From: Deltaproteobacteria bacterium
GTDB taxonomy: Bacteria > Desulfobacterota > GWC2-55-46
Length of the DNA: 64,000 nucleotides
Assembly (NCBI GenBank): GCA_020846435.1
Contig: JADLDY010000021.1
Span: 1-64,000, forward strand
Direction of reading: 5' to 3'
The notes under the pieces are model-generated. The model saw only the letters and a program-made list of their open reading frames with translations. It did not search any database and had not been told where the DNA came from. The position numbers and the translations under genes are program-made. This document shows positions 3,696-63,223 of the stretch, piece after piece (the first letter of the stretch is position 1; every line of letters starts with the position of its first letter).

Positions 3696-5928
<2,233 letters not shown>

Positions 5929-5951
5929 GACAAGGGAAAGGAGGAGAGAAG

Positions 5952-6134
5952 ATGCCGAAGTTCGTATGCAAGAAGTGTTCAAGGGAATTCTGGGGATGGG
6001 GAGTAAGCCACATGTACAGGGCGGGAAAGAATCTCGTATGCCCGGATTGCGGGGAGCCGCTCGAGCAGAAGATGGAAAAACTCGCGTCCCCGGACCTCTC
6101 TGACGGGTTCTTCGATGGGCCTGAAGCGGCCTGA
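5952..6134 (+). CDS. Mini zinc-ribbon protein
   Basis: 60 residues, ATG preceded by AAAGGAGGAGA. Two CxxC pairs (C6-C9 and C30-C33) should bind one zinc; the loop between them is aromatic (FWGWGVSHMY). No enzyme domain fits in this length. Its 3' end overlaps the next gene by 20 bp, so it belongs to the glycan operon. I do not recognise the family. It might be a scaffold or a carrier-like accessory of the sugar pathway; that is conjecture. Confidence 0.75.
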   Translation: MPKFVCKKCSREFWGWGVSHMYRAGKNLVCPDCGEPLEQKMEKLASPDLSDGFFDGPEAA

Positions 6135-7173: not shown

Positions 7174-7175
7174 AG

Positions 7176-8995: not shown

Positions 8996-9021
8996 CAAAA
9001 AAGCGAAAGGTGATGAAAACA

Positions 9022-10350: not shown

Positions 10351-10367
10351 TGAGAGGGGATGAGCGC

Positions 10368-16839: not shown

Positions 16840-16840
16840 T

Positions 16841-18868: not shown

Positions 18869-18871
18869 CAT

Positions 18872-46012: not shown

Positions 46013-46040
46013 TTGACATATTTTAAAATTAGTATAAGAT
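46013..46040 (+). promoter_or_regulatory. Probable sigma-70 promoter of the polysaccharide locus
   Basis: TTGACA (46013-46018), 16-nt AT-rich spacer, TAAGAT (46035-46040). About 90 nt before the GT9 start. Confidence 0.55.
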
Positions 46041-46133: not shown

Positions 46134-47363
46134 GTGAACCTTGCGCGTCTGCGGCTCATTTCGCGTAAATTCAAATCTTTTGCCACCTGCGTCTCTTCGT
46201 ACCTCATCAACAGGCTTTTTAACAACCGGCCGCCGTCTTTCACAGGCCCTGTCAATGTGGTTGTCTTCAAGCTCGACAATGCCGGTGACGTCGTACTCTC
46301 TTCTCTTGTCATGCCGGCTGTGGCTGAGGCCCTTGGCGGAGGCCGCATATACTATGTTGTCAAAAAAGGGCTCGGGCCGCTTTTAAGCCAGGTCGATTGC
46401 GTCTCAGGCGTAATCGAAGTGCCAGGCGGGCTTGGCCATTGCAGCAGGGTGGGAGCAGACGAGAGAAAAGGGCTCAACATCTCAAGGAGGATCATAAAAA
46501 AGGCCATGGCAGAGCTGAGGCCAGCTCTCATAATAGACCTGAGGCCGACAGCTCTTGGAAATTACGGCGCGCTTGCGGCAAGGCTCTATGGAGCGCGCCA
46601 CAGGGTAACCCTCGACAGGATAAGGCTCAAGGAGAATTACGGTCAAGGCAGGAAAATGAAGTGGAAGCGGCACGAGGCAGAGACTTTCTGCGCGGCCCTC
46701 GAAGAGGCGGGAATATTGAAGCGCCATGGTGATTACAGGTCTACGCTGACATTCTGGAAGAGGCCTGTCGGCGCGCCCCTGTCTGGCAAAAGGTACTTTC
46801 TCATTCAGCCAGGCGCTGTCTGGGAGTACAAGAAGTGGCCTGAGCGAAGTTACGCGACCCTCATCGATTCACTCTCAGCCCTTTACCCGGACCTCATCTT
46901 TGTACTTGTGGGAAGCGGTGAGGAAAGCGGCGTCTGCTCCAGGGTATGCGAGATGACCGGCAGGAGAGCGAGAGAAAGGGTCGTTGACCTTGCGGGAAAG
47001 ACGACCTTCGCTGAGCTTCTCTGTCTTGTGGGCAACGCTGATATGGTCGTCGCTAACGACTCAGGGGTCGCGCACATGGCAGGAGCGTTTGGCGTAAGAA
47101 CAGTCGTTTTTTTCGGCCCGTCCTCGCCTGAGAGGTTCAAGCCACTGTCGGAGCGCCAGGGGAATATAAAGGTCTTTCACCATAAGCTTCACTGCAACCC
47201 TTGCGACCAGCATCAATGTATTGAAGGGCCAGCATCATACTGTCTTACACGTATAACACCGGCTGAAGTAGTTGAAGTCATACGCTCAATAATGGGAGAA
47301 GGCGAAGACCTTGAAAAAAAAGACAACCAGCCTGCTCAAGAACACATAGCTTCAAACGTATAA
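46134..47363 (+). CDS. Glycosyltransferase family 9 (heptosyltransferase-like)
   Basis: 409 residues from GTG 46134 (weak SD). GT-B fold: N-terminal VVFKLDNAGDVVLSSLVMPA and C-terminal LCLVGNADMVVANDSGVAHMAG, VFFGPSSPERFKPLS, the GT9 donor-site signature. GT9 enzymes add ADP-heptose or related sugars in LPS core synthesis. First gene of the surface-polysaccharide locus. Confidence 0.92.
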   Translation: MNLARLRLISRKFKSFATCVSSYLINRLFNNRPPSFTGPVNVVVFKLDNAGDVVLSSLVMPAVAEALGGGRIYYVVKKGLGPLLSQVDCVSGVIEVPGGLGHCSRVGADERKGLNISRRIIKKAMAELRPALIIDLRPTALGNYGALAARLYGARHRVTLDRIRLKENYGQGRKMKWKRHEAETFCAALEEAGILKRHGDYRSTLTFWKRPVGAPLSGKRYFLIQPGAVWEYKKWPERSYATLIDSLSALYPDLIFVLVGSGEESGVCSRVCEMTGRRARERVVDLAGKTTFAELLCLVGNADMVVANDSGVAHMAGAFGVRTVVFFGPSSPERFKPLSERQGNIKVFHHKLHCNPCDQHQCIEGPASYCLTRITPAEVVEVIRSIMGEGEDLEKKDNQPAQEHIASNV

Positions 47364-47479
47364 GTACTTAACCGAGATCTGCTAAAGAACACCCCTTCAC
47401 GACACTCACCATTTCGGCTCACGGCCGGCCTCATTAAAAAAAAAGAAGCAGTAAGATTACCCATTTATCGGGTGGCAAT

Positions 47480-48727
47480 ATGCTATTGACTGAAAATCCC
47501 AAAAAAAGGGCGGATTCCGGAGCGAAGAGGATATTCCTCATCACTCCAAGGTTTCCTTTCCCTGTAATAGGCGGGGACAAGCTGCGTGTTTACAATATCG
47601 TCAAATACCTGTCCGGCTATTACAGGTTCACTCTGGCCTCTTTGTATTCAACCGAGGAGGAGGAGCAGGCCACAGCTGAAGACGGCATCTTTGACGAGGT
47701 CTACCGCGTGAGGCAGCCGAAGGCCGCGTCCTACTGCTACACCGCCGGGAGCCTCCTCAATGGGAGGTCTCTGCAGAGAGGTTATTTTTATAACCCAAGG
47801 CTCAAAAGGCTCATAGACTCCAAGATAGGCGGGCACGACCTCTTGCTTGCGCACCTCATTCGCGTATCTGACTATGTCATGGGCAAAGGTATCCCTTCAA
47901 TATGCGAGATGACGGACGCCATCTCGATGAACTATGAACGGGCAGGAAGGGCAAATAACCGTTCGCTTAAAAAGTTTATTTACAGGTTCGAGCACAAAAG
48001 ATGCCTTGATTCAGAAAGGATGTGCCTTGATGGCTTTGATGGCTGCGTTGTCGTCTCTCCAAATGACAGGCAGTACCTTGCCGACAAATATCCGCAGTAC
48101 TCAGGGAAGATGCACGTGATACCCAATGGCGTCAGGTTAGAGGACTTCAAGTGCGCGAGAGACAAGGTCACAAAGGGCAAAATCATCTTCATCGGCAACA
48201 TGAGGACGCTTCAGAACTCGGACGCCGCCTCCTACTTCGCTAAGGAAGTATTTCCCTTAATAAGGAGCAAAAGGCCTGAGGCCACATTCTGGATAATCGG
48301 AGCTGACCCCGGCCGCGAGATTCTCTCACTTTCGTCCATCCCCGGGGTAGTAGTGACAGGCAGGGTCGACGACGTCAGAGAGAGCGCGCATGACGCCGAG
48401 GCGAGCGTATGCCCGGTAAGGATAGGCGCTGGGATACAGAACAAGGTTCTGGAGTCAATGGCAATGGGCATACCTGTGGTGACGACTTCGATAGGGGCTG
48501 AGGGGCTTGCCGCCAGAGACGGCTTTGACTTCAAGGTCGCCGACTCCCCGGCTGAGTTCGCGAAAGCTCTCTTCGAGATATTCAGTGACAGGTCAAAGGC
48601 ACAGGCGTTTTCAAGAAACGGCAGAACCCTTGTCGAAGAGCGTTACTCATGGGACGGAATGCTCAAGTCTTACAGAGAGCTTATCGACAGGGTATTGGGC
48701 AGGGTAGAAGAATGCAGGCCGCAATGA
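47480..48727 (+). CDS. Glycosyltransferase family 4
   Basis: 415 residues. GT-B fold: FLITPRFPFPVIGGDKLRVYN at the N-terminus (Gly-rich acceptor loop), VIPNGVRLEDF at the linker, and NKVLESMAMGIPVVTTSIGAEGL, the donor-binding signature. It resembles the sugar transferases of exosortase/PEP-CTERM-associated polysaccharide loci, but no exosortase is seen here. Builds a lipid-linked repeat unit in the cytoplasm. Confidence 0.9.
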   Translation: MLLTENPKKRADSGAKRIFLITPRFPFPVIGGDKLRVYNIVKYLSGYYRFTLASLYSTEEEEQATAEDGIFDEVYRVRQPKAASYCYTAGSLLNGRSLQRGYFYNPRLKRLIDSKIGGHDLLLAHLIRVSDYVMGKGIPSICEMTDAISMNYERAGRANNRSLKKFIYRFEHKRCLDSERMCLDGFDGCVVVSPNDRQYLADKYPQYSGKMHVIPNGVRLEDFKCARDKVTKGKIIFIGNMRTLQNSDAASYFAKEVFPLIRSKRPEATFWIIGADPGREILSLSSIPGVVVTGRVDDVRESAHDAEASVCPVRIGAGIQNKVLESMAMGIPVVTTSIGAEGLAARDGFDFKVADSPAEFAKALFEIFSDRSKAQAFSRNGRTLVEERYSWDGMLKSYRELIDRVLGRVEECRPQ

Positions 48728-50274
48728 CGTTAAAAATAAGCGATAGCCCGAAAAATGGCCTGAGAGAGTCATGCCGGAGGCTCCTCGCGCTCAAAAAAAG
48801 CCCGGTTGGAGACACCTTTGAAAAGGTCTTCATACTTTCCGCGACGCATCTCGTAAGCGGCCTTCTTATGCTCGCGACCTTCGTGCTCCTCGCGAACAAG
48901 CTCGGCCCCAGGCTCTACGGAGAGTTTACCTTCGTTGACTCGGTCCTGTTCATAGCCATACTATGCGCCTCATTGGGCACAGAATATGTAGGGAACAGGG
49001 AGGTCGCGAGAAGGGACGAATCAAGGGAGCTTGTAAACGGCGTTCTCATCCTGAGGTGTATCGCGTCTCTCGCGGTCTTCAGCCTCATAGTGCTATGGAC
49101 GCTCATATTCGTCGACTCTCCCACTTTGCGCCCGCTTCTGTTGATCAGCGCTGGAGTATTGCTCTCGGTACCTGGTATCGCTGGCTGGTACTTTCTTGCC
49201 AAACACAGGGTAAGGATAGTCGCTGTCGTGACCCTCATAAGGGAGGCCGCGTTCTTTCTTCCGGTCTTTTTCATTCTCGATCTCGTCGAAGACCCTGAAA
49301 AGAGGCTCCTTTACGCCGCGGTCTTCTATCTTCTCTCGAGGTTTGCATTCTCGGCGATTTTCCTTTTGAAGCTCATAACGGAAAACGGGTTTTCAATCAA
49401 GGTCAAGACAGTCACATACAGATTTCTCTTCAAGGATAGTCTGGCCCTTCTTTACGCGTCTCTTGTCTCGAGCGTGACAATAGGTTTGCAGATTTACATG
49501 CTCAAGCTCCTTGGAGAAGAGTACGCGCTCGGCGTCTACGGCGCGCTCTTCAAGCAGATCTTCTACATACAGCTCCTTTCGCTTTCGTTCATCATGGTCT
49601 TTTTCCCGCTTCTTTCTAAGGCATGGGTCGAGGACAGGGCAAGGTATTCGCGTCTCGCGTCAGCCCTGTCGGAACTTACGCTTGTCGTTGTCCTGCCAAT
49701 TGCGATGAGCGGTGTCTTATATCCAGACTACATATTAAGTCTTTTTTTTACTGCAGACTACGCCCAGGGCGGACTTGCCTTGCAGCTCCTGTGCCTGTCT
49801 CTCTTCCCCATGAGCTATGTAAGAGTCTTGACGACAGGGGTTCTCATAAGCATGGACATGACCTCGAAGATGTACTCGCTCGTGAACATAGCTTTTGTCG
49901 GCTCGATAATCTCCGGCGTTGTCATCTTCGCTTTCAAGAGCGCTGACGCAGGAGCGGCGGCTTCAAGGCTTGCCGCAGAGTGCCTTTTCGCGGCCGTCTC
50001 TTACAGGGTGGTGTCAAAGAAGGTACGGGTCATTACGCCGGGCCTTCTCTGGTGCGTACTGCCGGGAGCCGCGGCGATGGTGGCAGTCAGGATCGTCATT
50101 CCTGAAGGATATGAGCTTTTCGGGATGATCTCCTGCTACCTGGCGTTTTTTGCAGTATATCTGTTCGGCCTCTTTTACGCACGCCGAGATGAGGTGAAAG
50201 AAGCTTTCTCAACCGCCAGAGGTGGCAGCGAAAGGACTGGAAAGCAAATACTCATAGGAAGGGAAGAGACATGA
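48712..50274 (+). CDS. wzx: Wzx-type polysaccharide flippase
   Basis: 520 residues from ATG 48712 (GGGTAG upstream), overlapping the GT4 stop; ATG 48724 in the ATGA overlap is the alternative. About 14 membrane helices of the MATE/MOP superfamily (e.g. VFILSATHLVSGLLMLATFVL, shown shortened: LVSGLLMLATFVLLANKLGP). Near the N-terminus GPRLYGEFTFVDSV is typical of Wzx. Flips undecaprenyl-linked repeat units to the periplasm for Wzy. Confidence 0.88.
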   Translation: MQAAMTLKISDSPKNGLRESCRRLLALKKSPVGDTFEKVFILSATHLVSGLLMLATFVLLANKLGPRLYGEFTFVDSVLFIAILCASLGTEYVGNREVARRDESRELVNGVLILRCIASLAVFSLIVLWTLIFVDSPTLRPLLLISAGVLLSVPGIAGWYFLAKHRVRIVAVVTLIREAAFFLPVFFILDLVEDPEKRLLYAAVFYLLSRFAFSAIFLLKLITENGFSIKVKTVTYRFLFKDSLALLYASLVSSVTIGLQIYMLKLLGEEYALGVYGALFKQIFYIQLLSLSFIMVFFPLLSKAWVEDRARYSRLASALSELTLVVVLPIAMSGVLYPDYILSLFFTADYAQGGLALQLLCLSLFPMSYVRVLTTGVLISMDMTSKMYSLVNIAFVGSIISGVVIFAFKSADAGAAASRLAAECLFAAVSYRVVSKKVRVITPGLLWCVLPGAAAMVAVRIVIPEGYELFGMISCYLAFFAVYLFGLFYARRDEVKEAFSTARGGSERTGKQILIGREET

Positions 50275-51422
50275 TAAACGCGATCAAAAATTATTTTCAG
50301 ATAGACGGAGCGTCCCAGGTCGACTGGAAGAAGTTTGCTTATCCAAAAAGGTTCTACAACGCGCTCAAATACGTACATTACAGGAAGAGCATGCCTGTTG
50401 AGGCTCCGTATTACCCGCTGACAGTGATGCTCGAAGTTAGCACCTTCTGCAACTTCAAATGCCCGGCCTGCGAAAGGGAGCTGTACAAAAAGGATGTTGC
50501 GTCTACCGGCGGCCTCTTCAAGGAAAACGTCAAGCTCGAGGAGATAAAAAGGCTCTCGGCGCTGCTTCCTTACGTGTACAGCGTCTATCTCGTGGCAGGG
50601 CTCGGCGAGCCTTTCATAAACAAGGACTTCTGGCCGATAGTCTCCTTTCTCAAGTCTTTCGACGTTAAGATCGGGTACTTCACAAACGCCTCCCTGCTTG
50701 ACGAGGAGAAGATAGCCGAGACCTTTCGCCGCCGCATCAATACCGTCCTCATCTCCATGGACACGCACGAGCGTTCAAAGTACGAGATGGTCAAGGAAGG
50801 CGCTGACTTTGACCACACGGTCAGCATGATAAAGCTCTTCGCGGACTATAAAAAGCGTTTCAGCTCCACTCATCCATTTCACCTCGGTCTCAACTATATA
50901 TTCAGGGCCGACAATTACGCGGACATTCTACCGTACCTCGACTTCGTAAAGGAGCTCGGTGTCGAGTACGTGCACTGCTCTTCCCTTATTGTGCACGTCG
51001 ACGAAACCAGGGATTTTTCTTTCTTCAAGGTCCCGGTGGAGAAAAAAACGAAGGTTTTCGAAGAAGCGCGGAAAAAGGCAGCGAGTCTCGGTATAGGACT
51101 GAGGCTTCCAAACCTCGAGATCGACAGGAACACACGCTGCTGTTATCCATGGCACGGCATCTCGGTGTTCAAGGGTGGAGACGTCGCGACCTGTCCGTAC
51201 TTCCGGACGAACAGGGATTTTTACTACCACGTCGAGCGCGACTCAGGCCTTATTGAAGATAAGAGGTTTGTAAAAAATACGGTCATAGGCAATTACCTCA
51301 AGGAGAACATACTCGACATCTGGAACAACGAGCGCATCAAGCAGATAAGAAGGGGAGAGCTCAAACTCGAGCCTCACGCATCCCCGTGCGACGCCTGTTA
51401 CTACAAGTTCCTTCTTCACTGA
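50271..51422 (+). CDS. Radical SAM/SPASM protein 1
   Basis: 383 residues, ATGA overlap with wzx. The radical SAM cluster motif is C60-x3-C64-x2-C67 (STFCNFKCPAC). C-terminal SPASM features: CCYPWHGISVFKGGDVATCPY, and NILDIWNNERIKQIRRG followed by CDACYY. These proteins bind two or three Fe-S clusters and act on peptides, sugars or small molecules. Four such proteins in one polysaccharide locus imply glycan or lipid-carrier tailoring. Confidence 0.9.
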   Translation: MINAIKNYFQIDGASQVDWKKFAYPKRFYNALKYVHYRKSMPVEAPYYPLTVMLEVSTFCNFKCPACERELYKKDVASTGGLFKENVKLEEIKRLSALLPYVYSVYLVAGLGEPFINKDFWPIVSFLKSFDVKIGYFTNASLLDEEKIAETFRRRINTVLISMDTHERSKYEMVKEGADFDHTVSMIKLFADYKKRFSSTHPFHLGLNYIFRADNYADILPYLDFVKELGVEYVHCSSLIVHVDETRDFSFFKVPVEKKTKVFEEARKKAASLGIGLRLPNLEIDRNTRCCYPWHGISVFKGGDVATCPYFRTNRDFYYHVERDSGLIEDKRFVKNTVIGNYLKENILDIWNNERIKQIRRGELKLEPHASPCDACYYKFLLH

Positions 51423-51468
51423 CTGGGCCTGAGGGTTTTGATCTGAAAAGCTTGCCTGGAAGGTTGCC

Positions 51469-52593
51469 ATGAATATGGAAGATAAAAGCGAAAAAAAACT
51501 GATAGCGCACCTGTCGCTCACCAACGCCTGCAATTTTCTCTGCACCATTTGCCCGTCGATGCGCGAAGACAAGAAGTATTCGAGGCCCAGGATGACGGCC
51601 GGGCTTCTTGACAGAGTTCTCTTAGAGGTGCTTCCCGATTGTTCGACTTTGATCCTCGGCGGCAACAGCCTCGGCGAAGTGACGACTCACAGCGAGTTTG
51701 GCCGCTTTCTCGCAGACAGCTTCAACCCTGACAACAGGATCAGGATGCGCCTTACTACAAACGGGTACAGGCTTGGCGAGCTATCATCGAAGCTGGCGCG
51801 CAAATTCTCATTTGTTTCAATCTCTTTCGACGGGGCGACAAAGGGGACCTATGAAGCAATAAGAAAATACCCGTATGAGAAGATTGTCGCGAATATAAAA
51901 AAACTCAACGCTGAGCGCGTCAAAGAGGGCACAGAGCTCAAGATCGGGCTTGGCATGACGCTTCTTTACGACAACCTCCATGAGCTTCCGGCGCTTGTCG
52001 AGCTCGCTTCCTCCCTTGGAGTTGACATGGTAGCAGGAAGCTACTTCATACCGAATTTTCCATCAGAAAGGTATCAGTGCCTCTATTACCACCAGAGGTA
52101 CGCAAACGATATCGCTGAAAAAGCCGAGGAGAGAGCCTGGCTTCTCGGGGTCGAGTTCAGGATGCCGAGGTTCATGATGCCCGGGCAAAAGCTCACGCAA
52201 GATGAGCTCCGTCCGGTCCATGAGACGTGCCCTCTGCCTTCTACAATGGTGAACATCTCGGAGACCGGTGTCGTGACTCCGTGCTGCGCCAATCCGACCA
52301 TAATGGGCGACCTTTCAAAACAGAGCTTCGAGGAGGTCTGGAACGGGAAAAAATATTCCAGGTTCAGGGAAGACCCGGGAGCCAATCATTACTGCCGTAT
52401 CTGCCATACGCCTGTATTCGGGAAGAGGGCGAGCACAGGGGTCATGCTTGACCCGTCATACCAGATAAAGACTATCGGAACAGAGCTTGGAATGGGACAG
52501 GTGCTTTGTTCAGGCCTCGTCCGCACTTTGTCAGGCTCAAAGACAGGTTTGAGCGTAATAAACTTCGGAAAATCAGCGGTGGGCAGGAAGTAG
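51469..52593 (+). CDS. Radical SAM/SPASM protein 2
   Basis: 374 residues, GGAAGG upstream. Cluster motif C21-x3-C25-x2-C28 (ACNFLCTIC). SPASM part: VNISETGVVTPCCANPTIMG, SFEEVWNGKKYSRFRED, and CRICHTP. It lacks the ~35-residue N-terminal extension of protein 1. Substrate unknown. The 141-nt gap after it (52594-52734) holds no convincing gene. Confidence 0.9.
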   Translation: MNMEDKSEKKLIAHLSLTNACNFLCTICPSMREDKKYSRPRMTAGLLDRVLLEVLPDCSTLILGGNSLGEVTTHSEFGRFLADSFNPDNRIRMRLTTNGYRLGELSSKLARKFSFVSISFDGATKGTYEAIRKYPYEKIVANIKKLNAERVKEGTELKIGLGMTLLYDNLHELPALVELASSLGVDMVAGSYFIPNFPSERYQCLYYHQRYANDIAEKAEERAWLLGVEFRMPRFMMPGQKLTQDELRPVHETCPLPSTMVNISETGVVTPCCANPTIMGDLSKQSFEEVWNGKKYSRFREDPGANHYCRICHTPVFGKRASTGVMLDPSYQIKTIGTELGMGQVLCSGLVRTLSGSKTGLSVINFGKSAVGRK

Positions 52594-52734
52594 CCTTTGA
52601 AATACCAATAACAATGAGCAAGGCGCACTCGAAGTCTGGATTTACCGGGGAGCTGGCAGTACAGCGCGGGGCAGGCAAAAAAAACAAGCAACCAGGACTA
52701 TTCACTCTCGAGACAGGTAAAAATCGGAGAGTGC

Positions 52735-53844
52735 ATGAAAACAGTGTTGCCTTTTGCGGTCTCTTTTGTCGTTCAGTTACTCGCTCTTAAATATTTTTGC
52801 AGGCATTCCATGTGCATCGACAACGCTAAGATCTTCAAGCCGCAGAGGATGCACATCCTGCCTACACCGCGGGCCGGTGGGCTCGGAATCTTCGCCGGCT
52901 CGCTCATCGTCCTGTCTCTGGCTGAGCCAGAGGGGATGCACTTCGTCATGTCGGCGCTCCCGGTGTTTCTCATCGGTTTTGTGGAGGACCTGAGCTCGAG
53001 CGTAAACCCCTTCCAGCGGCTTCTCATCATTGCCGCGGGAGCCGGGCTGGGCTCCATATTCATGGACGCGGTCATAACCGACATAGGGTTTTTGACGCTC
53101 CCTCTGGCTCTCGCCATACCGTTCACGGTCTTCGCTGTGACGGGGGTTGCCAACGCGATAAACATAATAGACGGGATGAACGGGCTTGCCTCGGGGATAT
53201 CGATCATCACATTCTTTTTTCTCGGCCTTGCCGCGTACATCGTCGGAGACACTGCCATACTCGCGCTTTCCGTGGCCTTGCTGGCCGCGACAGCCGGTTT
53301 TTTCGTTTTCAATTTTCCGAAGGGGAGGATATTCCTTGGCGACGGAGGAGCCTACTTCATTGGTTTCGCGATTGCCGAGCTTTCAGTGATGCTCGTCAAC
53401 AGAAACCCTGAAATATCGCCATGGTTTCCGCTCGCGCTCATGGCTTATCCGGTAACCGAGGTGGCTTTCACGATCTTCAGAAGAAAAGTGAAAAAAGGAC
53501 GCTCTCCTTTCATGCCTGACAGGGCGCACCTTCACAGCCTGCTTTACAAACGGGTTACCAGGAGCAACTCGCGAACGTCCTGCGTCTTCTGGTCCATGAC
53601 AGTTCCATTTGACGCCGCGGCCTTTTTTCTGCTTGATAGCTCGGTGGCGATGACAGCCGTTATCGTAACATTTGTCGCCATGTATCTCGCGCTCTATACG
53701 CGGATAGTCAGGTTCAGGACTCCATCTTTCCTGAGGTCGCTCTCAAGCGGTTCGCGTCCTATTGACTGGCAGAGCCCTTCGTGGGATGAGGCGATAACAA
53801 ACGGCGTTGAAGTATATAAACAAAAACTTGGAGAAGGACAATGA
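52735..53844 (+). CDS. Undecaprenyl-phosphate sugar-1-phosphate transferase (WecA/MraY family)
   Basis: 369 residues with about ten membrane helices. Family motifs: PTPRAGG (first loop), NIIDGMNGLASG, FLGDGGAYFIGF with catalytic Asp residues, and DRAHLHSLLYKR (the HxH loop typical of WecA-type enzymes). It should start the repeat unit by transferring GlcNAc-1-P or another HexNAc-1-P to undecaprenyl phosphate. The stop overlaps the next gene (ATGA). Confidence 0.92.
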   Translation: MKTVLPFAVSFVVQLLALKYFCRHSMCIDNAKIFKPQRMHILPTPRAGGLGIFAGSLIVLSLAEPEGMHFVMSALPVFLIGFVEDLSSSVNPFQRLLIIAAGAGLGSIFMDAVITDIGFLTLPLALAIPFTVFAVTGVANAINIIDGMNGLASGISIITFFFLGLAAYIVGDTAILALSVALLAATAGFFVFNFPKGRIFLGDGGAYFIGFAIAELSVMLVNRNPEISPWFPLALMAYPVTEVAFTIFRRKVKKGRSPFMPDRAHLHSLLYKRVTRSNSRTSCVFWSMTVPFDAAAFFLLDSSVAMTAVIVTFVAMYLALYTRIVRFRTPSFLRSLSSGSRPIDWQSPSWDEAITNGVEVYKQKLGEGQ

Positions 53845-55124
53845 AAGAGTTCGCCATGCATATCGCTTCAAGGGCAAAAAAATCAAAGCCCTACGTCAAG
53901 TGGCTCACCGAGCAGACCGCCGCGATAGTCAGGCAGCGGGGCTTGAAGGCAGGCCTCAATTACCTTTGGACAATAGCTTTCTCAATCGAGGACGGCGTAG
54001 GCCTCCTCTATCCGCTCTGGTCTAAAAAGCCGTGGCTTGTCCGTTATCCCGGGAGGATCGAGGTCGAAGTCACTACCAAATGCTTCCTGAAATGCCTGAA
54101 GTGCGAGCAGGTCTACTGGAATGAGCCGCAAAAGAGCCTGAGCGCCGCGCAAATAGAAAAAGTGCTTGACGAATTCCCGAGGCTCAAGGCCATAAGCCTC
54201 TCAGGCATCGGGCATAATTACCAGAACCCTGAATATGAAAAGATCCTGAAGCTCTGCTGCGACAAGTCGCTTTACGTGCAGTTTTTTGACACATTCCTGC
54301 TCTTGAGCCCATCGAGAGCGAAAAACCTCGTTGACTGGGGAGTGACAAAAGTCTGGATGTCGATTGACGGAGTTGACGAAAAGACTGTCGCTGTCCAGCA
54401 GCAGGGCTCGAGTTTCAGCAAGGTCGTGAACAACGCCAAGTTCCTGTCAAGGTACAAGCTCGAAAAGAAGGCGAGGTTCCCCGAGCTCGGCTTCACGGTC
54501 GTTGTAACTAAGTACAACATCGACAGGCTCCCGGAGTTTCTCGACCTCTTTGACTCGATAGTCGGTGAATCGCAGAGGATGATCATGGTCCAGTTCATTA
54601 GGCTTATAGGCTTCGATGAGAACAAATACCTTATGCCTGACGCTTCGCTCCTTAAAAACGCCAAGGCAGCCGTGCTTGAACGTGCATCGAAGTTCAGGCG
54701 CGAGCGTTTCAGGATGAACTTCACGCACTTCAAGTACAACGTCGAAGATAACAAGGAGCCAATAGAGTGCTGCGCGTCATGGGCCGTGCCGTTCATCACA
54801 GTCGACGGCGTCGTGTACCCTTGCTGCGGACTGACTGAGGGCAACCAGAGAAAGCATATCGACAAGGCTGCTTTCGGCAATGTCTTTGATAAGCCGTTCA
54901 GGAAGATCTGGAACAATGAAGGATACTCAGACCTCAAATCCAGGATCTCCAAAGGCCTTTCACCTGACATATGCAGGCTGTACAGGCCCTGTACGTCTTT
55001 CAAGACCGGCCCTGCCTTGTTACAAAAGCCAGTTGAAGCGGCGGAAACAAAAGCCGCGCCAGCACACTCTGTCCAACCGGTATATGCCGGGAAAGCGGCG
55101 ATCAAAGAAGCCCATGACGCTTGA
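53841..55124 (+). CDS. Radical SAM/SPASM protein 3
   Basis: 427 residues; GGAGAAGG upstream. Cluster motif C81-x3-C85-x2-C88 (KCFLKCLKC) after an ~75-residue N-terminal helical extension. SPASM part: CCASWAVPFITVDGVVYPCCG, FDKPFRKIWNNEGY, and CRLYRPC. The C-terminal ~35 residues are Ala/Lys/Pro-rich and probably disordered. Co-translated with the WecA-type gene and the next gene. Confidence 0.9.
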   Translation: MKEFAMHIASRAKKSKPYVKWLTEQTAAIVRQRGLKAGLNYLWTIAFSIEDGVGLLYPLWSKKPWLVRYPGRIEVEVTTKCFLKCLKCEQVYWNEPQKSLSAAQIEKVLDEFPRLKAISLSGIGHNYQNPEYEKILKLCCDKSLYVQFFDTFLLLSPSRAKNLVDWGVTKVWMSIDGVDEKTVAVQQQGSSFSKVVNNAKFLSRYKLEKKARFPELGFTVVVTKYNIDRLPEFLDLFDSIVGESQRMIMVQFIRLIGFDENKYLMPDASLLKNAKAAVLERASKFRRERFRMNFTHFKYNVEDNKEPIECCASWAVPFITVDGVVYPCCGLTEGNQRKHIDKAAFGNVFDKPFRKIWNNEGYSDLKSRISKGLSPDICRLYRPCTSFKTGPALLQKPVEAAETKAAPAHSVQPVYAGKAAIKEAHDA

Positions 55125-56160
55125 TGACCTGAAAAATGGCAGATGGGAGGTGCTGTCGTCGCCTGTCCTTGGGCCTTCAACCAGCGGGTGGGACAGCCAT
55201 TCGAGCATGACGCCTGTCGTCTTCAGTAACTCAGAGATGGGAATAGAGAGCTCAGGCGACTACGGCATGCTTTACGTCGGCGTCGGGCACCGTTCTAGCG
55301 CCTGGGGCGTTGGCTATGCTTCTTCTGACGACCTCTTTAGCTGGCAAAAAAATCCTGGGAATCCTGTCCTTCTGCAGGACAAAGCGGCTTCTTTCCAGAT
55401 TGACGCTCCCTGCCTGTTGAGGACTGAGACGGGATTGAACCTCATCTGCGAGGAAAAGAGAATTGAGGACAGCCTCGCGGCTTCCATGCGCAACCTGCTG
55501 AGCCCATCTACAAAGCTGGCCCTTAGGGCTCTAAGGCGTGCAATCGGTCTTGAAAAACCGACTGTCGTGAATCATGCAGCAGGCAGGTACTTTGTAAGTT
55601 TCGAGTCAAGAGACGTCTCGAGATGGAGCGGCTCAACAAAAAAAGTCGTCTTTGAAAGCGGTCCGCACGGCGCGTTTGACTGCGCGGGGGTCTTCTCACC
55701 GCAGGTCTACAAGTTCGGAGGCCTGTTTTACCTTTTCTATGGCGGGACAGACGGCAGGAAGGCTTATACCGGACTTGCCGTAGGCAAAAAGCCTGGCGGC
55801 AGATGGGCCCGGCTGGCTTCAATGCCAATACTCTCACCAGGGGAGAGCGGGGATTGGGACGAGGTGAACTCACTTATCGTCAGCGTCATCAGATTAGACG
55901 ACTGCTACTGCGCTTTTTACGAGGGCGAGGACTCCAGAAGAATGTACAGCATAGGCATGGCCTGGTCTAAAGACCTTGTAAACTGGGTCAAGTGGGAGAA
56001 GAACCCTGTCATCTCGCCGGGCAGCGCTTCATATTGCGAGCACATGGTATGTGGGCCGAGGGCATTCTCAGATGGCAAGAGCCTCTACATTTTCTTTAAC
56101 GGCCACGGAAAAGACATGCGCGGGTCCTGCGGCCTGGCCATATTCAGGGGGGACGGATGA
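55114..56160 (+). CDS. Five-bladed beta-propeller glycosidase-like protein (GH43/GH130-type)
   Basis: 348 residues from ATG 55114, overlapping the previous stop by 11 bp; a longer in-frame reading only duplicates the upstream gene's region. Propeller blades carry the repeated YFVSFE..., YLFYGGTDGRKAYTGLAVG, YCAFYEGEDSRRMYSIGMA and LYIFFNGHGKDM motifs with W/D turns (SKDLVNWVKWEKNPVI). No signal peptide, so it would act in the cytoplasm; it may be a phosphorylase or a non-catalytic sugar-binding protein. Substrate unknown. Confidence 0.8.
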   Translation: MTLDDLKNGRWEVLSSPVLGPSTSGWDSHSSMTPVVFSNSEMGIESSGDYGMLYVGVGHRSSAWGVGYASSDDLFSWQKNPGNPVLLQDKAASFQIDAPCLLRTETGLNLICEEKRIEDSLAASMRNLLSPSTKLALRALRRAIGLEKPTVVNHAAGRYFVSFESRDVSRWSGSTKKVVFESGPHGAFDCAGVFSPQVYKFGGLFYLFYGGTDGRKAYTGLAVGKKPGGRWARLASMPILSPGESGDWDEVNSLIVSVIRLDDCYCAFYEGEDSRRMYSIGMAWSKDLVNWVKWEKNPVISPGSASYCEHMVCGPRAFSDGKSLYIFFNGHGKDMRGSCGLAIFRGDG

Positions 56161-57005
56161 AAGAGGGGAGCGTTTCAGGATGGGAGCTTTTCAAGTTCAG
56201 TTTGTCGCTCGGCGCAGGCTATTACAGAAAAGGCCATGGAAAGCTCTTGCACCGCGAGGCAATGAGGAGGCTTCTGACACCGATAAACGTCAGCCGTTGC
56301 TACGAGTTCAGGAGGACGTTTGAGCTTCTGCTACCCAAAAGCGGCGAGCTTGTATTCGATCTTTCAAGCCCGAAGCTTCTTAGCCATTTTTTGAGTGAGC
56401 GGCAGGGGTGCAGGGTCATAGCGGCTGACATGAACAAGGAAGAGGTATATGACTGGACGAGCCTGACGAGGGAGAGGGAGAACCTGCCGTCATGGATAAT
56501 AGCCGACGGCGTTTGCCTCGGCATCAAGGACGACACCTTTGACAAGGTCTACTCGATCTCAGTGCTCGAGCATATACCGGGAGACGGCGACACGAAAACC
56601 ATGAAAGAGCTTGCCCGGGTTTTAAAGCCCGGCGGCAGGCTTGTAGTGACTGTCCCTTACGCCACAAGGCACAGGAGCGAGCGCGCCAGAAAAGACGTCT
56701 ACAACCTGCATAGGGAAAAAACAGGCGTTTTTCACTGGTCCCACTTCTATGATGAGCCGTCGTTGAGAAAGAAGCTGATCGAAGGCTCTGGACTTGAACT
56801 CGAGGGTGTATACTTTGGTTATGGCCCGGGCTCCGCGCTCTGGAAAAAGATAGAGAGGATGGGACGGTACGGCTTTCCTCTCTGGCTCTTCTCGATGATC
56901 ATTGAAAAATACGGTTTGAGGGAGTCGAGCTTTCAGCCGGCCTTCCTCGAAGACGACCAGTTCCTCGCGGCAGTCGCTGTCCTCAGAAAGGAGAAAAAAC
57001 ATTGA
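56157..57005 (+). CDS. Class I SAM methyltransferase
   Basis: 282 residues, ATGA overlap. Motif I is degenerate (VFDLSSPKLLSHFL, with the glycines of G-x-G-x-G missing), while motif II IAADMNKEEV and SISVLEHIPGDGD, LKPGGRLVVTVPY are intact. C-terminal half is longer than usual. It probably methylates a sugar of the surface polysaccharide; the altered motif I may reduce cofactor binding. Confidence 0.82.
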   Translation: MKEGSVSGWELFKFSLSLGAGYYRKGHGKLLHREAMRRLLTPINVSRCYEFRRTFELLLPKSGELVFDLSSPKLLSHFLSERQGCRVIAADMNKEEVYDWTSLTRERENLPSWIIADGVCLGIKDDTFDKVYSISVLEHIPGDGDTKTMKELARVLKPGGRLVVTVPYATRHRSERARKDVYNLHREKTGVFHWSHFYDEPSLRKKLIEGSGLELEGVYFGYGPGSALWKKIERMGRYGFPLWLFSMIIEKYGLRESSFQPAFLEDDQFLAAVAVLRKEKKH

Positions 57006-58129
57006 TAAACACTGGGCGCGTAAACCTCGCCAACATCAGGCGGGGCGCATATTCGGTATTTAACTGGATCCCGTACCATGCGCACTTTTTCACGCCGTAC
57101 CCTGTCGGCAGCTTCATCATCAACATCTCGCGGGAATGCGAGATGCGCTGCATGATGTGCAATATCTGGCAGAACAGAAAAACAGAGTATGCAGGAAAGT
57201 CACTCGACGCTGAAACCCTCTCGGCCATGCTGAATAATTCGGCGTTTCTCAAGAAAATGCCGTACGTCGTCATGACCGGAGGCGAGCCATTCCTCAGAAA
57301 GGATTTTGGAGAGATACTCAAGTCGGTTCTTTTGGTCCCGCACATAAGGAAGGTTACGATCGGCACAAGCGGGTTTTTGACGCGCAAGATCGTCTCCGAC
57401 GTAAACGCGTGCCTTGAGGCGACTGACCGCGCAAAAAAAATAGCCCTGCAGATCTCTCTTCAGGGCGTTGGCGAGGTTCAGGACAGGATAAAGGGCAGGG
57501 CGGATGCGTTCTCGCGCCTTAAGAAGACGATCAACGAACTCAAGGCTCTCAGCATGAAGTACCCCGGCAGGCTCACACTGTATATCTATTCGGTCCTTCA
57601 GGAGCAGAACAAGGACACCTTTGAAAAGACTTACGAGTTCTCACGCGAGCAGGGCATAGGCTACACCTTCGGGATAATAAACAACCTCAGTTACAACATG
57701 AACAGCTCCGAGCAATACACAAAGGAGCTCATAAATGAGGGTGACTTCAAAAGGCTCTCTGACCTTTACCCGTTCTACGGCGTGCTCAAGAACTGGGCGA
57801 GAAAAGGGTTTACCCAGCAGTCGACCGGGCTAAGGTGCTTTGCCGGTTACAGTTCATTTTTTCTGGATTTTGACGGCAGCGTCTATCCGTGCCTTCATAC
57901 CTCAAGCCTCAAAAGTTTCAGAATGGGTAATGTCTTTGAAGAGAGCTTTGACGGAATTTGGAAAAAAGCTAAAAAAGCGAGGGCTCTTACCAAGACCTGC
58001 GCCATTGACGAATGTCTTCAGGGTTGCGACAGGTCGGTTGTGAAACTCCAGTATTACGTCCCGGAGATGGTCTGCAGGGCGGCGACGCTGAACAGGTACA
58101 GCCTTTTGAAAGCAAGGGGCATCTTGTAA
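57002..58129 (+). CDS. Radical SAM/SPASM protein 4
   Basis: 375 residues from TTG 57002, supported by AAAGGAG about 9 nt upstream and a 4-bp overlap with the methyltransferase. Cluster motif C46-x3-C50-x2-C53 (ECEMRCMMC), then MTGGEPFLRKDF. SPASM part: CFAGYSSFFLDFDGSVYPCLH, SFDGIWKKAKKARAL and CAIDECLQGC. Last + strand gene of the locus, convergent with wzy. Confidence 0.9.
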   Translation: MINTGRVNLANIRRGAYSVFNWIPYHAHFFTPYPVGSFIINISRECEMRCMMCNIWQNRKTEYAGKSLDAETLSAMLNNSAFLKKMPYVVMTGGEPFLRKDFGEILKSVLLVPHIRKVTIGTSGFLTRKIVSDVNACLEATDRAKKIALQISLQGVGEVQDRIKGRADAFSRLKKTINELKALSMKYPGRLTLYIYSVLQEQNKDTFEKTYEFSREQGIGYTFGIINNLSYNMNSSEQYTKELINEGDFKRLSDLYPFYGVLKNWARKGFTQQSTGLRCFAGYSSFFLDFDGSVYPCLHTSSLKSFRMGNVFEESFDGIWKKAKKARALTKTCAIDECLQGCDRSVVKLQYYVPEMVCRAATLNRYSLLKARGIL

Positions 58130-58231
58130 TGCTTAACGTTCTTTTGAAACTGGATGATGTGCCGTTTAAAAAGCTGACAAATCAGACACAGGGAAAATCC
58201 TGTATAAAGACGCGTACGGCGTTTATGCTCC

Positions 58232-59551
58232 TTACGGTATTTTGAAAGACAGCGTACCTGTCGGCAGTCTCAGAAAAAAATAGACCAGAGAGTAGGCTAC
58301 AAAAAATGCAGCAATCGACATCGCCGTGTCAAAGACAGTTATGAGCACAGGCCCGCCTGCTATAAACGTCTGGTACTGCTGAAAGAGCAGAAAGCAGACC
58401 GGCGTACCTATGATGGTTTTCCTTCCATTCACGAGAAAATCCCCGAACCTCACGAAATAAAAGAAGAACAGAAAAGCGCCAGCCATAGTGGCTGGAAGGC
58501 CGAAGTTCGCGTAAAGCTGTCCGAAAAGCGAAGTCGTCGCCTGCATGTGGTACTCGTTATGTCCAAGTATCTTCTCGAATATGAGCGCGTCGAAGTTAAG
58601 CTCATGGAGCTGGAACGGCATCACGGGAGAGAGGCCGAGCTTGAGGAGAATGTAGCTGAGGTCGAACCAGAAGCCCTCGCCGTACAGAAAAGGCTCTGTG
58701 ACCCCGTAAGAGCTCAGCACGTAGATAAGACCTTCAGCGGCCGAGGTAGTAGACCTCATATACAGGAAGACCAGGAGTTCTGAGAGACCATCTGCTTTCT
58801 GGATCGTATAAAGCGCGAAAATAGAAAAGACGGCCCCGGCCGTTATGAAGGGCGCGAGATTGGAAAGCCGCACTCTTGTGACAAGACCGATGAAGCAGGC
58901 TGACCAGAGAAAGAAAGCGATGATATTGGCTTTGTAGCCGAGCGAAGAGAACAGAATGAGGATAGACAAGCCGAAGAGAAGCCATCCCTTGTCTCCAAAT
59001 CTTATAAGCTCGCCAAGGCCTGTCTCCATAAGCCTGTCTGTCGTGTTTCTTATCTTGAGGCGGGCCATGTGGAAGCAGTAGATGATTGACATGTAAAAGA
59101 GCGTCAATAGGAAATAACGCACAAGGCGTGTCGCGGCCCACCCGCCGTCCTGCGAAAATGTCACCTTGGCGATATTCGGCTCATCGGCGAAAACAGGGAC
59201 CCCCCTTTTAAGAAACATGAAGGTTATCCCTGCCGCCGCCAGAAAGAGAGCCAGACGAAAGGCCCTGGAATGCGTACCGGCGTTTTGACGGTCCATGTCG
59301 ATATCATATTGCGGCATTGAATTCTTATTTTTCTTCCCAAGAAAACTCCCGGCGTAGATCATTAACAGTATCGGGCTGTAAATGGCTGTCAGTTCAGAGT
59401 TGTCGGCGATAGAGATCTGTATGCCGAGCAAAAAAGGAAATAGCCCCGCAAACATCGATATCATTACAGGGTGAAGGATGTTCCTGGAAGCCGCCCGGAA
59501 GAATAAAAAAAACGGGAGCGCTCCAAGCATAAGAAAGTTAAGGGTCGACAT
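58232..59551 (-). CDS. wzy: Wzy-type O-antigen/EPS polymerase
   Basis: 439 residues, about 11-12 membrane helices and a large periplasmic loop near 300-350 (GVTEPFLYGEGFWFDLSYIL). It shows no sequence motif beyond the oligosaccharide-repeat-unit polymerase pattern, so the call rests on topology and on position after the SLBB exporter and Wzz genes. It starts 24 nt after the SLBB stop, so it is in the same transcript. Confidence 0.75.
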   Translation of the reverse strand: MSTLNFLMLGALPFFLFFRAASRNILHPVMISMFAGLFPFLLGIQISIADNSELTAIYSPILLMIYAGSFLGKKNKNSMPQYDIDMDRQNAGTHSRAFRLALFLAAAGITFMFLKRGVPVFADEPNIAKVTFSQDGGWAATRLVRYFLLTLFYMSIIYCFHMARLKIRNTTDRLMETGLGELIRFGDKGWLLFGLSILILFSSLGYKANIIAFFLWSACFIGLVTRVRLSNLAPFITAGAVFSIFALYTIQKADGLSELLVFLYMRSTTSAAEGLIYVLSSYGVTEPFLYGEGFWFDLSYILLKLGLSPVMPFQLHELNFDALIFEKILGHNEYHMQATTSLFGQLYANFGLPATMAGAFLFFFYFVRFGDFLVNGRKTIIGTPVCFLLFQQYQTFIAGGPVLITVFDTAMSIAAFFVAYSLVYFFLRLPTGTLSFKIP

Positions 59552-59575
59552 GTCTTTTTTTCCGGCTTTTCAGTG

Positions 59576-62275
59576 TCAGAACGCCACGATAAGCACACCG
59601 GCCGTGACGGCTATCTGGTAGAGTATCTGCGTTATATCCTTGACCTCCCTCAGCCATAGACCCTTGTCGATCTTTTCAGGGACAACGATGGTGTCTCCCG
59701 GGTCAAGCGTCGAGCGCGTAAAGCCAAAGCCTGAGGGCCAGGAGCTGTTTCTGCTCAAGGCAGTGCCGTCGCTCTTGAGGACGAATACCCTGCCTTCGTC
59801 TGCGTCAACGCTGTATCCGCCAGCCTTGCTGATATAGTTTTTGATGGCAGCTTCCTGCTCGAAGATGAACGCGGCCGGGTTTTGCACCGCGCCCATTATC
59901 TGTACCTGTGTCGGCCTCACCGGCACAAAAAGCCGGTCGCCGTGCTCGAGCGCGACATCATAACTCGAGCCGCTGAACCTGTTTAGTTCATCGAATTTCA
60001 GCGCGATCCTGCCCTGTGCCTTTACAGCCTTCACTCTGGCGAGGAGCTCTTTTTTAAGGCTGAGCGCGGTCTCCATCTGTTTCACATCATCCGTGCCTGT
60101 CGAGGTCAACGCCTGGGCGCTTGCGTCGTTAAGAAGCCTGGCTTCGAGCCGACTTACGGCCTCTTCCAGAGTTGTCTGCTGCAGCTCCCTTACAGACTCT
60201 CTCGTGAAAACCGCGCCATTGAGATAGGCCTCGTTTGTGAAGTCTCCAGCCCTTGTTATGACGCTGCTCAACTTCTCGCCCTTCTTGAATACATATTTTC
60301 CAGGGAACCGTACCTCGCCGCTGAGTTCTATGTACCGCCTGTCGAGCCAGTCGATCACCTCCCTGACAAAAAGAGAGTCATACGGCTTTATTTGAAGATT
60401 ATGCTCAGGGTCGCCTTCGAGCGCTTTTTCAAGGTCGAGCGTCCTGTAACTTAATGATGAGGTCGTCTTGTCTTCAACCTCATAGGAGGCGAGCTCGGCC
60501 TCTTTCAGATATGCAGATTCCTTAAGTCCGCCGCCCGCGAAGACGAGGTCGCTTACCCTCATATTGGAAGCGTAGCCGTACTCACCGGGCCTGTTGACCT
60601 GACCGAGGACGCTGACCGTTTTTTGAGGCTCCGCTTCAAGCGCCGAGTGCACACGCACGACGTCAGATGACCGAAGGACAGGATTTTCGGAGGGGACTCC
60701 CTGGAGGGCCTTTCCGAGATTGAGCCTCAGGAGCGATGTCTTTTGCGTCAGTTCGTCTTTTCTGTAAAGCTCGTATTCCCCGTAAGACGCTTCGGTTGTG
60801 AGCCCTCCGGCAAGAAGGATAAGGTCTTTTACAGTGAGGTTTTCTTCAATCGTGAATTGGCCCGGCGTCCTTACTTCGCCTTCTATGCTTACAGTCGGCC
60901 TGTCCCTGAAAAGCCATGTCGAGAAGACGAAGACCGAATCGAGCGGCATGAGCTTGAGGTCGTCAGGCTCGCTTCCTGAAAGGAGCGCGCCTACGTTGAA
61001 AGGGATGACCATTGTGTTAAGCTCCGGGGTGAGCCTCTTGATGACGCCGTAGGTGAGATGGGTTTCCTCCAGCAGATCTGAGAATCCGGTTATGATCCCG
61101 CTCAGTTTCATGCCGGGCTTGAGCTCGTACTTGCCAGGCCTTTTCACATTCCCGTAAAGATAGACGGCGTTGGTGTCCTTGCCGGTTATCGAGAGCACCT
61201 TCACGAAGTCGCCGTCCCTGAGCATGAACGATCCGGCTTTAGCTGTGTCGCCGGCGTTGATGTCGGCGACGACCCGCCTGCTGTTGTTTTCGATCCTTTC
61301 AACCTGCACCTGTTGTGTGTACGCGGTAGGTATCACGCCTCCCGAGAGTTCGATAGCCTCAAGAAGGCTGGTCGGGCCCTTAATCTCGTATGCGGCCGGT
61401 CTTTTTATATTTCCGGCTATCCCGATGACAGGGCCGATGACAGGCACGAAGACTACATCGCCGTCATTGAGCCTCGCGTCCCGTGATTTGTCTCCTTTCA
61501 GCAGGAGGTCGTAAAAGTCTATCTGCCTCGGTTTTTCGGTGCCTCGCCTCAGTTCGACCTTCCTCAGCGAGCCTATTGGCGCGGCCCCGCCAGCGGACAT
61601 GAGCGCGCTGGAGACGGTCGAGGCCGCGCTCATCTTGTATGAGCCGGGACGGCTTACTTCGCCGAGGACAAAGACCTGTATGCTCCTGAGCCTGCCCATC
61701 GTAACCGAGACTTCAGCGCCGATGATACTTCTTGCCTTGCTCGATATGAGTTCGCCTGCCTCTTTGAAGGTCATGCCGTTGACGTTGAGCGGACCTATCA
61801 TCGGCAGGCTTATCGTGCCTTCACGCGTGACTTTCAAAATGTGCTCGCCGGTTACTCTGCCCCAGAACGTGACGCCTATCTCGTCGCCGTAGCCAATCGG
61901 GTAGTCAGGGTTTATCGGGAGGCTCTCCGGAGCGCTCAGCTCAGAGCCGGAGAAGACAGCTTGGCCAAAAGGCTTTAGAGGAGGGGTAGCGGCGAGCAAC
62001 GGGTCCTCGGCCATGAGACGTTCAAAGATATCCGCCGGCCCGCTGGCCTTCTCATTCTTTTTCTTGTCTGGTACATCTTTAGTTCTCTTTTCAGACTTGA
62101 CGCTCTCTCCGGCGGCTTCAACGCAGGGTGCGCCGTCAGATTGTCTTGACGTCTCGACGATACCGTCTTTGGCACAGGGCTCGACAGGTCTGTCATCTCC
62201 GAGAGGCGCAGTGGGAAGACAGAAAATAAGGGCGGCTAAAATGATGAGCGCCTGCCGCAGGCTCCACTTTCTCAT
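59576..62275 (-). CDS. Polysaccharide export protein with seven SLBB repeats
   Basis: 899 residues. Signal peptide (RQALIILAALIFCLPTAPLG). Poly_export domain about 125-215 (NPDYPIGYGDEIGVTFWG). Seven SLBB-type repeats follow, recognised by G-x-V-x-x-P-G-x-[YF] cores (e.g. LGEVSRPGSYKM, YGNVKRPGKYEL, LGQVNRPGEYGY, SGEVRFPGKYVF). A C-terminal hydrophobic helix (ILYQIAVTAGVLIVAF). E. coli Wza is ~380 residues with two SLBB domains, so this is an extended periplasm-spanning relative. Forms the outer export channel. Confidence 0.9.
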   Translation of the reverse strand: MRKWSLRQALIILAALIFCLPTAPLGDDRPVEPCAKDGIVETSRQSDGAPCVEAAGESVKSEKRTKDVPDKKKNEKASGPADIFERLMAEDPLLAATPPLKPFGQAVFSGSELSAPESLPINPDYPIGYGDEIGVTFWGRVTGEHILKVTREGTISLPMIGPLNVNGMTFKEAGELISSKARSIIGAEVSVTMGRLRSIQVFVLGEVSRPGSYKMSAASTVSSALMSAGGAAPIGSLRKVELRRGTEKPRQIDFYDLLLKGDKSRDARLNDGDVVFVPVIGPVIGIAGNIKRPAAYEIKGPTSLLEAIELSGGVIPTAYTQQVQVERIENNSRRVVADINAGDTAKAGSFMLRDGDFVKVLSITGKDTNAVYLYGNVKRPGKYELKPGMKLSGIITGFSDLLEETHLTYGVIKRLTPELNTMVIPFNVGALLSGSEPDDLKLMPLDSVFVFSTWLFRDRPTVSIEGEVRTPGQFTIEENLTVKDLILLAGGLTTEASYGEYELYRKDELTQKTSLLRLNLGKALQGVPSENPVLRSSDVVRVHSALEAEPQKTVSVLGQVNRPGEYGYASNMRVSDLVFAGGGLKESAYLKEAELASYEVEDKTTSSLSYRTLDLEKALEGDPEHNLQIKPYDSLFVREVIDWLDRRYIELSGEVRFPGKYVFKKGEKLSSVITRAGDFTNEAYLNGAVFTRESVRELQQTTLEEAVSRLEARLLNDASAQALTSTGTDDVKQMETALSLKKELLARVKAVKAQGRIALKFDELNRFSGSSYDVALEHGDRLFVPVRPTQVQIMGAVQNPAAFIFEQEAAIKNYISKAGGYSVDADEGRVFVLKSDGTALSRNSSWPSGFGFTRSTLDPGDTIVVPEKIDKGLWLREVKDITQILYQIAVTAGVLIVAF

Positions 62276-62302
62276 TCTCTCTCCATGTCAGTGCTTTTGT
62301 TT

Positions 62303-63205: not shown

Positions 63206-63223
63206 CTGACTCTCCTGAGTCAA

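Follow-up and report, generated by a model that had tools for sequence, protein, structure and literature searches.

Radical SAM proteins as probable tailoring enzymes of a Wzx/Wzy-type surface polysaccharide in a deltaproteobacterium

A window of 64,000 nucleotides from a deltaproteobacterium of the Desulfobacterota lineage GWC2-55-46 (assembly GCA_020846435.1, contig JADLDY010000021.1, positions 1 to 64,000, forward strand) contains a polysaccharide locus in which the genes of four different radical S-adenosylmethionine (SAM) proteins, here RS1 to RS4, stand among genes for glycan assembly and export. We favor the reading, to which we assign a probability of roughly 0.7, that the product of the locus is a surface polysaccharide of the Wzx/Wzy type and that RS1 to RS4 modify its sugars before export. 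That these enzymes have a glycan-related substrate of some kind is very probable. The initial annotation had assigned them to a surface glycan or to a lipid-linked form of it, and this proposal gains support from the structure of the operon, the co-occurrence of its genes in relatives, the enrichment of such genes near Wzx with a clean radical SAM control, and the sugar cassettes of phages, which include a glycosyltransferase fusion. What the sequences show is the gene content, the packing of the operon, the cysteine patterns, the shared conservation, and the link to glycan genes, and from this context we infer the substrate, the reaction, and the order of steps. A WecA-like enzyme would start the repeat unit on the lipid carrier and glycosyltransferases would lengthen it, while RS1 to RS4 would modify at least one sugar in the cytoplasm, on a precursor or on the lipid-linked unit, ahead of flipping by Wzx. 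At the CxxxCxxC cluster of each enzyme, cleavage of SAM would yield a 5'-deoxyadenosyl radical that abstracts hydrogen from a carbon of the sugar; in RS1, RS2, and RS3, the second electron would be handed to a single auxiliary cluster. The methyltransferase encoded in the same operon may cap a product, and a propeller protein may bind or trim the modified unit.

RS1 to RS4 are intact genes on the plus strand and, as read from the open reading frames (ORFs), belong to a single tightly packed operon. RS1 (50271..51422) overlaps by 4 base pairs (bp) the stop of a Wzx-type flippase gene (48649..50274; PF01943, 67.4 bits against a cut-off of 28.2; start codon uncertain) and is followed by RS2 (51469..52593) and by a WecA/MraY-type polyprenyl-phosphate sugar-1-phosphate transferase gene (52735..53844; PF00953, 113 bits; TIGR02380, 104 bits, not reaching the cut-off of 326), the stop of which is overlapped by 4 bp by RS3 (53841..55124). 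The gene for a five-bladed beta-propeller protein (55114..56160) starts at about 55114, inside the end of RS3, and shares a further 4-bp overlap with that of a class I SAM-dependent methyltransferase (56157..57005; PF08241, 49.6 bits), whose stop is in turn overlapped by 4 bp by RS4 (57002..58129), which has a TTG start. Gaps between the genes of the operon, where they exist, measure just 46-141 bp. Thus, the initial description of four distinct radical SAM genes interleaved with wzx, a WecA-type enzyme, a propeller protein, and a methyltransferase is borne out by the intact ORFs, the Pfam matches, and the tree described below, although the whole polysaccharide locus, at 46134-63223, is wider than the segment first annotated. 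Genome-wide, the SPASM model PF13186 has nine matches in 2.4 Mb, and four of these nine are RS1 to RS4.

All four proteins retain CxxxCxxC within the PF04055 domain, as initially reported, and pass the Pfam gathering thresholds for both Radical_SAM (PF04055) and SPASM (PF13186). The accompanying claim that the SPASM cysteines are kept holds at the level of PF13186, but not for the motif itself, which comprises seven cysteines in the arrangement CX9-15GX4C-gap-CX2CX5CX3C-gap-C (PMC6231123): it is absent from RS1, RS2, and RS3, and RS4 has six of the seven with altered spacing. By sequence pattern, RS1, RS2, and RS3 instead agree with the Twitch domain, a truncated SPASM with four auxiliary cysteines as in BtrN, so that, judged by the cysteines, RS4 alone is SPASM-like and the other three are Twitch proteins. 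RS1 has core cysteines C60/C64/C67 and the auxiliary pairs C290-x17-C308 and C373-x2-C376; RS2, which has no N-terminal extension, has C21/C25/C28 with C254-x17-C272 and C309-x2-C312; and RS3 has C81/C85/C88 with C310/C311-x17-C328/C329 and C378-x5-C384. The second auxiliary pair of RS3 is Cx5C in the genus of the window and CxxC in the more distant relatives G023 and G058 discussed below. In RS4, the near-complete SPASM set consists of C279, C297, C333, C338, C342, and C358. RS2 to RS4 are only 19-25% identical to RS1, and separate clades are highly supported for RS1 (99/98), RS3 (98/98), and RS4 (100/100) and moderately for RS2 (83/86) in a tree that has some long branches whose joins are unsure. 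Matches to viperin reported by PADLOC are at the superfamily level only (17-39 bits) and were not taken as an indication of defense.

The complete locus recurs, in the same gene order, in another genome of the genus (G001, also represented as CAJPGC010000040). Between the two genomes, RS1 is 87% and RS3 84% identical, the methyltransferase and RS4 77%, and most of the other genes 64-74%. The nonsynonymous divergence (dN) is likewise lowest for RS1 (0.077) and RS3 (0.105), with Wzx at 0.239 and GT9 at 0.273; these values were used as ranks only, since the synonymous divergence is saturated (1.4-2.3), and the propeller gene was left out. By this sequence comparison, RS1 and RS3 are the slowest-evolving of the operon genes compared. 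The association reaches further: G023, from the same family, encodes RS1 (46% identity), RS3 (30%), and the propeller protein (40%) together with Wzx, as does G058, from the same class (31, 28, and 29%, respectively). In profile searches, strong matches to RS1, RS3, and the propeller protein co-occur near Wzx in the same 4 of 63 genomes of the class and in no other; the profiles were built from these four genomes, which inflates the E-values there, while the single-sequence matches are free of this bias. A search for RS1 and the propeller protein in 395 genomes of the phylum retrieved nothing beyond the four. Glycan genes make up most of the predicted ORFs around RS1 and RS3 in G023 and G058, both loci also hold cobalamin-binding radical SAM genes, and G058 has a second copy of RS1 adjoining another Wzx. 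Directly 5' of the RS3 homologue of G023 lies a gene (L028:7819-8949) for a DUF362 protein with ferredoxin-type cysteines, a candidate electron donor.

Glycan islands gather mobile genes, and the radical SAM genes might lie near Wzx for that reason, with no joint function. Up to 36 kb the window has a G+C content of about 0.57; this drops to 0.50-0.54 over 36-60 kb, with 0.51-0.53 in the operon, as in many variable surface-glycan regions. However, such indifferent gathering is hard to reconcile with RS1 and RS3 changing least among the operon genes compared, with the recurrence of the RS1/RS3/propeller trio in different families of the class, and with the behavior of other radical SAM genes. 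A Wzx match is no more than 10 kb away for 43 of the best 150 SPASM matches in 62 class genomes, as against 3.9 expected by random placement, an approximately 11-fold excess; these matches come from 22 genomes and are not independent, several sharing one locus. By comparison, MiaB/RimO-type proteins (PF00919) served as a control, and none of their 131 matches lay within 10 kb of Wzx, with 3.0 expected; none lay even within 20 kb. Chance co-location near Wzx was thus rejected, and we regard a mere accumulation of mobile genes as improbable. Further arrangements were seen in the class. A contig of genome G053 (C343:1-12487) packs radical SAM genes of two types, four Twitch and two cobalamin-binding, into 12.5 kb, along with genes for an aldo-keto reductase, an acyltransferase-like protein, a methyltransferase, and a beta-keto acid cleavage enzyme (BKACE); this set, in which some gene names come from reading the sequence alone, looks like a rare-sugar pathway. 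In family f4 of the same taxonomic order, the arrangement radical SAM, GT9, radical SAM, GT9 recurs (genomes G044, G037, G039, and G032; loci L032, L033, L037, and L039) and is possibly a lipopolysaccharide-core counterpart.

Viral contigs of IMG/VR encode homologues of RS3 that are 31% (L095-L097) and 30% (L109) identical to it and fall within the RS3 clade of the tree. Their neighbors are glycosyltransferases, an epimerase-like short-chain dehydrogenase/reductase (SDR), and a sugar nucleotidyltransferase. In L109 (IMGVR_UViG_3300009034_000593), a single ORF of 626 residues (5170-7050) fuses an Anp1/GT2 domain to a Twitch radical SAM domain of the RS3 clade and is followed downstream by two cobalamin-binding radical SAM genes and genes for a GT4 glycosyltransferase, an SDR, and a nucleotidyltransferase. 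The viral SDRs of L109 and L095 share 50% and 48% identity, respectively, with the SDR of the G023 locus, and the nucleotidyltransferase of L109 is 41% identical to its counterpart there; in G058, an SDR 54% identical to that of the L109 cassette lies on the contig of RS3, about 12 kb away from it. Viral status follows the IMG/VR classification for L095 and L109, and genes for tail proteins or for terminase and portal proteins for L100 and L112. Among 50,697 named phages, neither RS3 nor the fusion had a match at 1e-5, and the propeller protein had none among the viral contigs. Other viral arrangements include a phage in which the large terminase and portal genes flank two Twitch-like radical SAM ORFs (L112:3888-6269, IMGVR_UViG_3300010319_000031) and runs of four (L101:830-5867) and three (L103:3102-6909) consecutive ORFs with radical SAM and auxiliary cysteine patterns, most of which begin with a Twitch-like segment.

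These cassettes also bear on the idea that the enzymes act on the lipid carrier and not on the sugar, for instance by making a C-C bond or by desaturation of the polyprenyl chain. In its favor, the gene for the polyprenyl-phosphate transferase is overlapped by RS3, there are radical SAM enzymes that act on lipids, and a search with the RS3 profile matches one of them, the archaeal macrocyclic archaeol synthase (7tol, 3e-4). Yet the sugar-nucleotide genes and the glycosyltransferase fusion that accompany RS3 in phages point to the sugar, and G023 and G058 keep RS1 and RS3 with no adjacent WecA-like gene among the ORFs read. We therefore give a lipid substrate little probability.

Several observations weigh against a role in glycan tailoring. 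The entire support for a glycan substrate is genomic context; RS2 and RS4 are less widely conserved than RS1 and RS3, so that their part in the module is less certain; and the genome of the window has no close copy (best 35%) of the epimerase found alongside RS3 in G023, G058, and phages. Moreover, the closest structures and families are not exclusively those of sugar-acting enzymes. The profiles of RS1 and RS3 detect BtrN, mostly through its C-terminal domain and with remote similarity, and the AlphaFold2 model of RS3 (mean predicted local distance difference test [pLDDT] score 69) matches DesII and BlsE (14-17% identity) as well as the peptide-modifying SuiB and SkfB. DesII acts on a dTDP-aminosugar and BlsE on a nucleoside sugar acid. 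As the fold and profile matches together cover both sugar-acting (BtrN, DesII, BlsE) and peptide-acting (SuiB, SkfB) enzymes, they do not by themselves favor a sugar over a peptide substrate.

Most characterized SPASM enzymes act on peptides, and with SuiB and SkfB among the best matches of the RS3 model, RS1 to RS4 might mature a ribosomally synthesized and post-translationally modified peptide (RiPP) encoded in or near the locus. The operon offers little place for such a peptide: its 46-141-bp gaps leave no room for one, no conserved small ORF lies between the genes, and the only small ORF fitting the gap between RS2 and the WecA-like gene (58 amino acids) runs into the latter gene, in a gap that mostly differs in the sister genome. 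The small peptide substrate gene contemplated in the initial annotation was sought between the genes of the operon, and none convincing emerged. Nor did any leader-binding domain score in Pfam, and the N-terminal extension of RS3 (about 70 residues) is modeled, at low confidence, as helices without the three-stranded sheet of a RiPP recognition element. Finally, the conserved neighbors are Wzx and glycosyltransferases, with no small gene among them. These points make RiPP maturation unlikely. The highest NCBIfam scores raise a different prospect, namely that the proteins are maturases of metalloenzymes like those of tungsten-cofactor oxidoreductase: the best scores of RS1, RS2, and RS3 go to TIGR04317 (90-123 bits) and TIGR04311, and a Thermovirga relative (25.5% identity) adjoins genes for a tungsten oxidoreductase and MoaD. 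Nevertheless, the TIGR04317 scores are far under the threshold of 380, the locus shows neither an oxidoreductase nor a MoaD gene, and RS1 and RS3 are set mainly among glycan genes in G023 and G058; such a function is accordingly very improbable.

The initial annotation had named epimerization, dehydrogenation, and C-C bond formation as possible chemistries. Within the glycan-tailoring reading, the simplest outcome for RS1 to RS3 would be the BtrN-like conversion of a sugar alcohol to a ketone, with epimerization less probable. In BtrN, a single fully ligated auxiliary cluster goes with two-electron oxidation (PMC9012708), whereas peptide radical SAM epimerases return hydrogen via an extra cysteine (PMC8326336). 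We found no positionally invariant non-cluster cysteine in RS1 (four orthologues), RS3 (four), or RS2 (three). The predicted single auxiliary cluster, as in BtrN, and the lack of an invariant extra cysteine favor oxidation over epimerization, and, by this analogy, we tentatively suggest two-electron oxidation as the main reaction of RS1 to RS3, with somewhat less than even confidence. The profile of the propeller protein matches the GH117 structure 4ak6 (2.7e-16) and its AlphaFold2 model (pLDDT 71) matches GH130 structures, five-bladed propellers being common to both families. It falls short of GH43 (PF04616, 29.9 bits against a cut-off of 32.2), the fold class being the same. No signal peptide was seen in it by eye, and a propeller protein with no obvious export signal would fit a cytoplasmic role on the repeat unit.

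The closest published arrangement is the 36-kb plasmid of Brachyspira hyodysenteriae, for which La et al. (2014) tabulated glycosyltransferase and rfb genes with six radical SAM genes in their midst and suggested a role in lipooligosaccharide or glycosylation (PMC4267127). Like the locus in the window, it sets several radical SAM genes among glycan genes, on the plasmid those for glycosyltransferases, NAD-dependent epimerases, and rfb functions, and relatives of RS1 (about 25% identity) occur on Brachyspira plasmids. It differs in gene order and sugars, is known from annotation, and has no RS1-RS3-propeller module in the published table. Radical SAM cassettes are also mentioned in the variable region of pelagimyophages (PMC7029224), and on a Methylobacterium plasmid a radical SAM gene is flanked by genes of the GT87 and GT2 families. 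In the full-text literature, with most subscription journals outside its scope, we found no functional study, and radical SAM was linked to Wzx, O-antigen, exopolysaccharide, or nonulosonic acid only in the Brachyspira plasmid and pelagimyophage papers. Thus, the initial characterization of the system as little described is apt for its biochemistry but not for its gene arrangement, in print since 2014: multi-radical-SAM glycan loci are already known as annotation, and the RS1-RS3-propeller module is a variant of that uncharacterized kind. Biochemical parallels come from antibiotic pathways. BtrN of butirosin biosynthesis has a single four-cysteine auxiliary cluster, as predicted for RS1 to RS3, and a sugar-like ring substrate (PMC9012708, PMC6231123), but serves an antibiotic precursor and not a surface glycan. 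For AviX12 of the avilamycin pathway, as cited in PMC8326336, in vivo work suggests inversion of a sugar carbon in an oligosaccharide antibiotic; its pathway differs from the present locus, to which it is likened by description and not by sequence.

The remaining genes are those of an exopolysaccharide system. Upstream, the operon starts at 46134 with the gene for a heptosyltransferase-like GT9 glycosyltransferase (46134..47363, plus strand; PF01075, 4.4e-25; under every NCBIfam equivalog cut-off), followed by that for a Stp1-like GT4 glycosyltransferase (47480..48727, plus strand; called from a TIGR03087 match of 254.6 bits, below the cut-off) and by wzx. A candidate sigma-70-like promoter (TTGACA-16-TAAGAT, 46013..46040, plus strand; 10/12 of the consensus) lies 94 bp upstream of the GT9 gene; it is the best of 10 matches in the region, with 6.5 expected by chance, and the match in itself is no sign of function. 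Downstream, a convergent set on the minus strand meets the operon at 58.2 kb: a putative Wzy-like polymerase (58232..59551), hydrophobic, placed by position, 73% identical in the sister genome, and with no family match in Pfam, NCBIfam, or PHROG; a Wza-type outer-membrane export protein with repeated export/SLBB-like segments (59576..62275), a call based on below-cut-off matches of the EpsE/EpsY type (TIGR03028, 192.5 bits against 262.65; TIGR03027, 156.8 against 180; three stretches each); and a Wzz-type chain-length determinant (62303..63223; PF02706, 40.1 bits against 25.5). The PNPT enzyme, Wzx, Wza, and Wzz expected of a Wzx/Wzy-dependent locus are hence all present, with PF00953, PF01943, and PF02706 above cut-off. 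Together with the Stp1-like glycosyltransferase, they are common to Wzx/Wzy exopolysaccharide loci including those of the XrtA/PEP-CTERM types, and such loci are not known to us to include radical SAM tailoring genes. The scores remain below the XrtA/PEP-CTERM cut-offs (TIGR03087, 254.6 against 316.65; TIGR03007, 50.2 against 278.85; and TIGR03027, as given above), and an exosortase is encoded on another contig. Elsewhere in the window, a separate flagellin glycosylation island (3702-20782) encodes PseB, PseC, a NeuB/PseI-type synthase, a cytidylyltransferase, and a PseD/Maf-like protein and has no SPASM match, and a 249-residue ORF on the minus strand (42761-43510), outside the polysaccharide operon, contains CxxxCxxC and is radical SAM-like by eye. 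An Rfam scan of the window returned no RNA family.

It is quite possible, though we hold this broader view with less than even confidence, that RS1 and RS3 represent a class of tailoring enzymes for lipid-linked or nascent glycans, forming with the propeller protein a conserved cytoplasmic module that acts ahead of Wzx, and that the RS3 branch extends to phages, there fused to a glycosyltransferase. The diversity of surface sugars is usually ascribed to epimerases, dehydratases, and transferases working on sugar nucleotides. If the reading offered here is true, conserved radical enzymes would stand between transferase and flippase, and C-H positions of sugars would be changed by radical chemistry, yielding sugars that would escape sequence-based glycan prediction. 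The phage copies, one of them fused to a glycosyltransferase, would offer a compact system in which the substrate may be identified.

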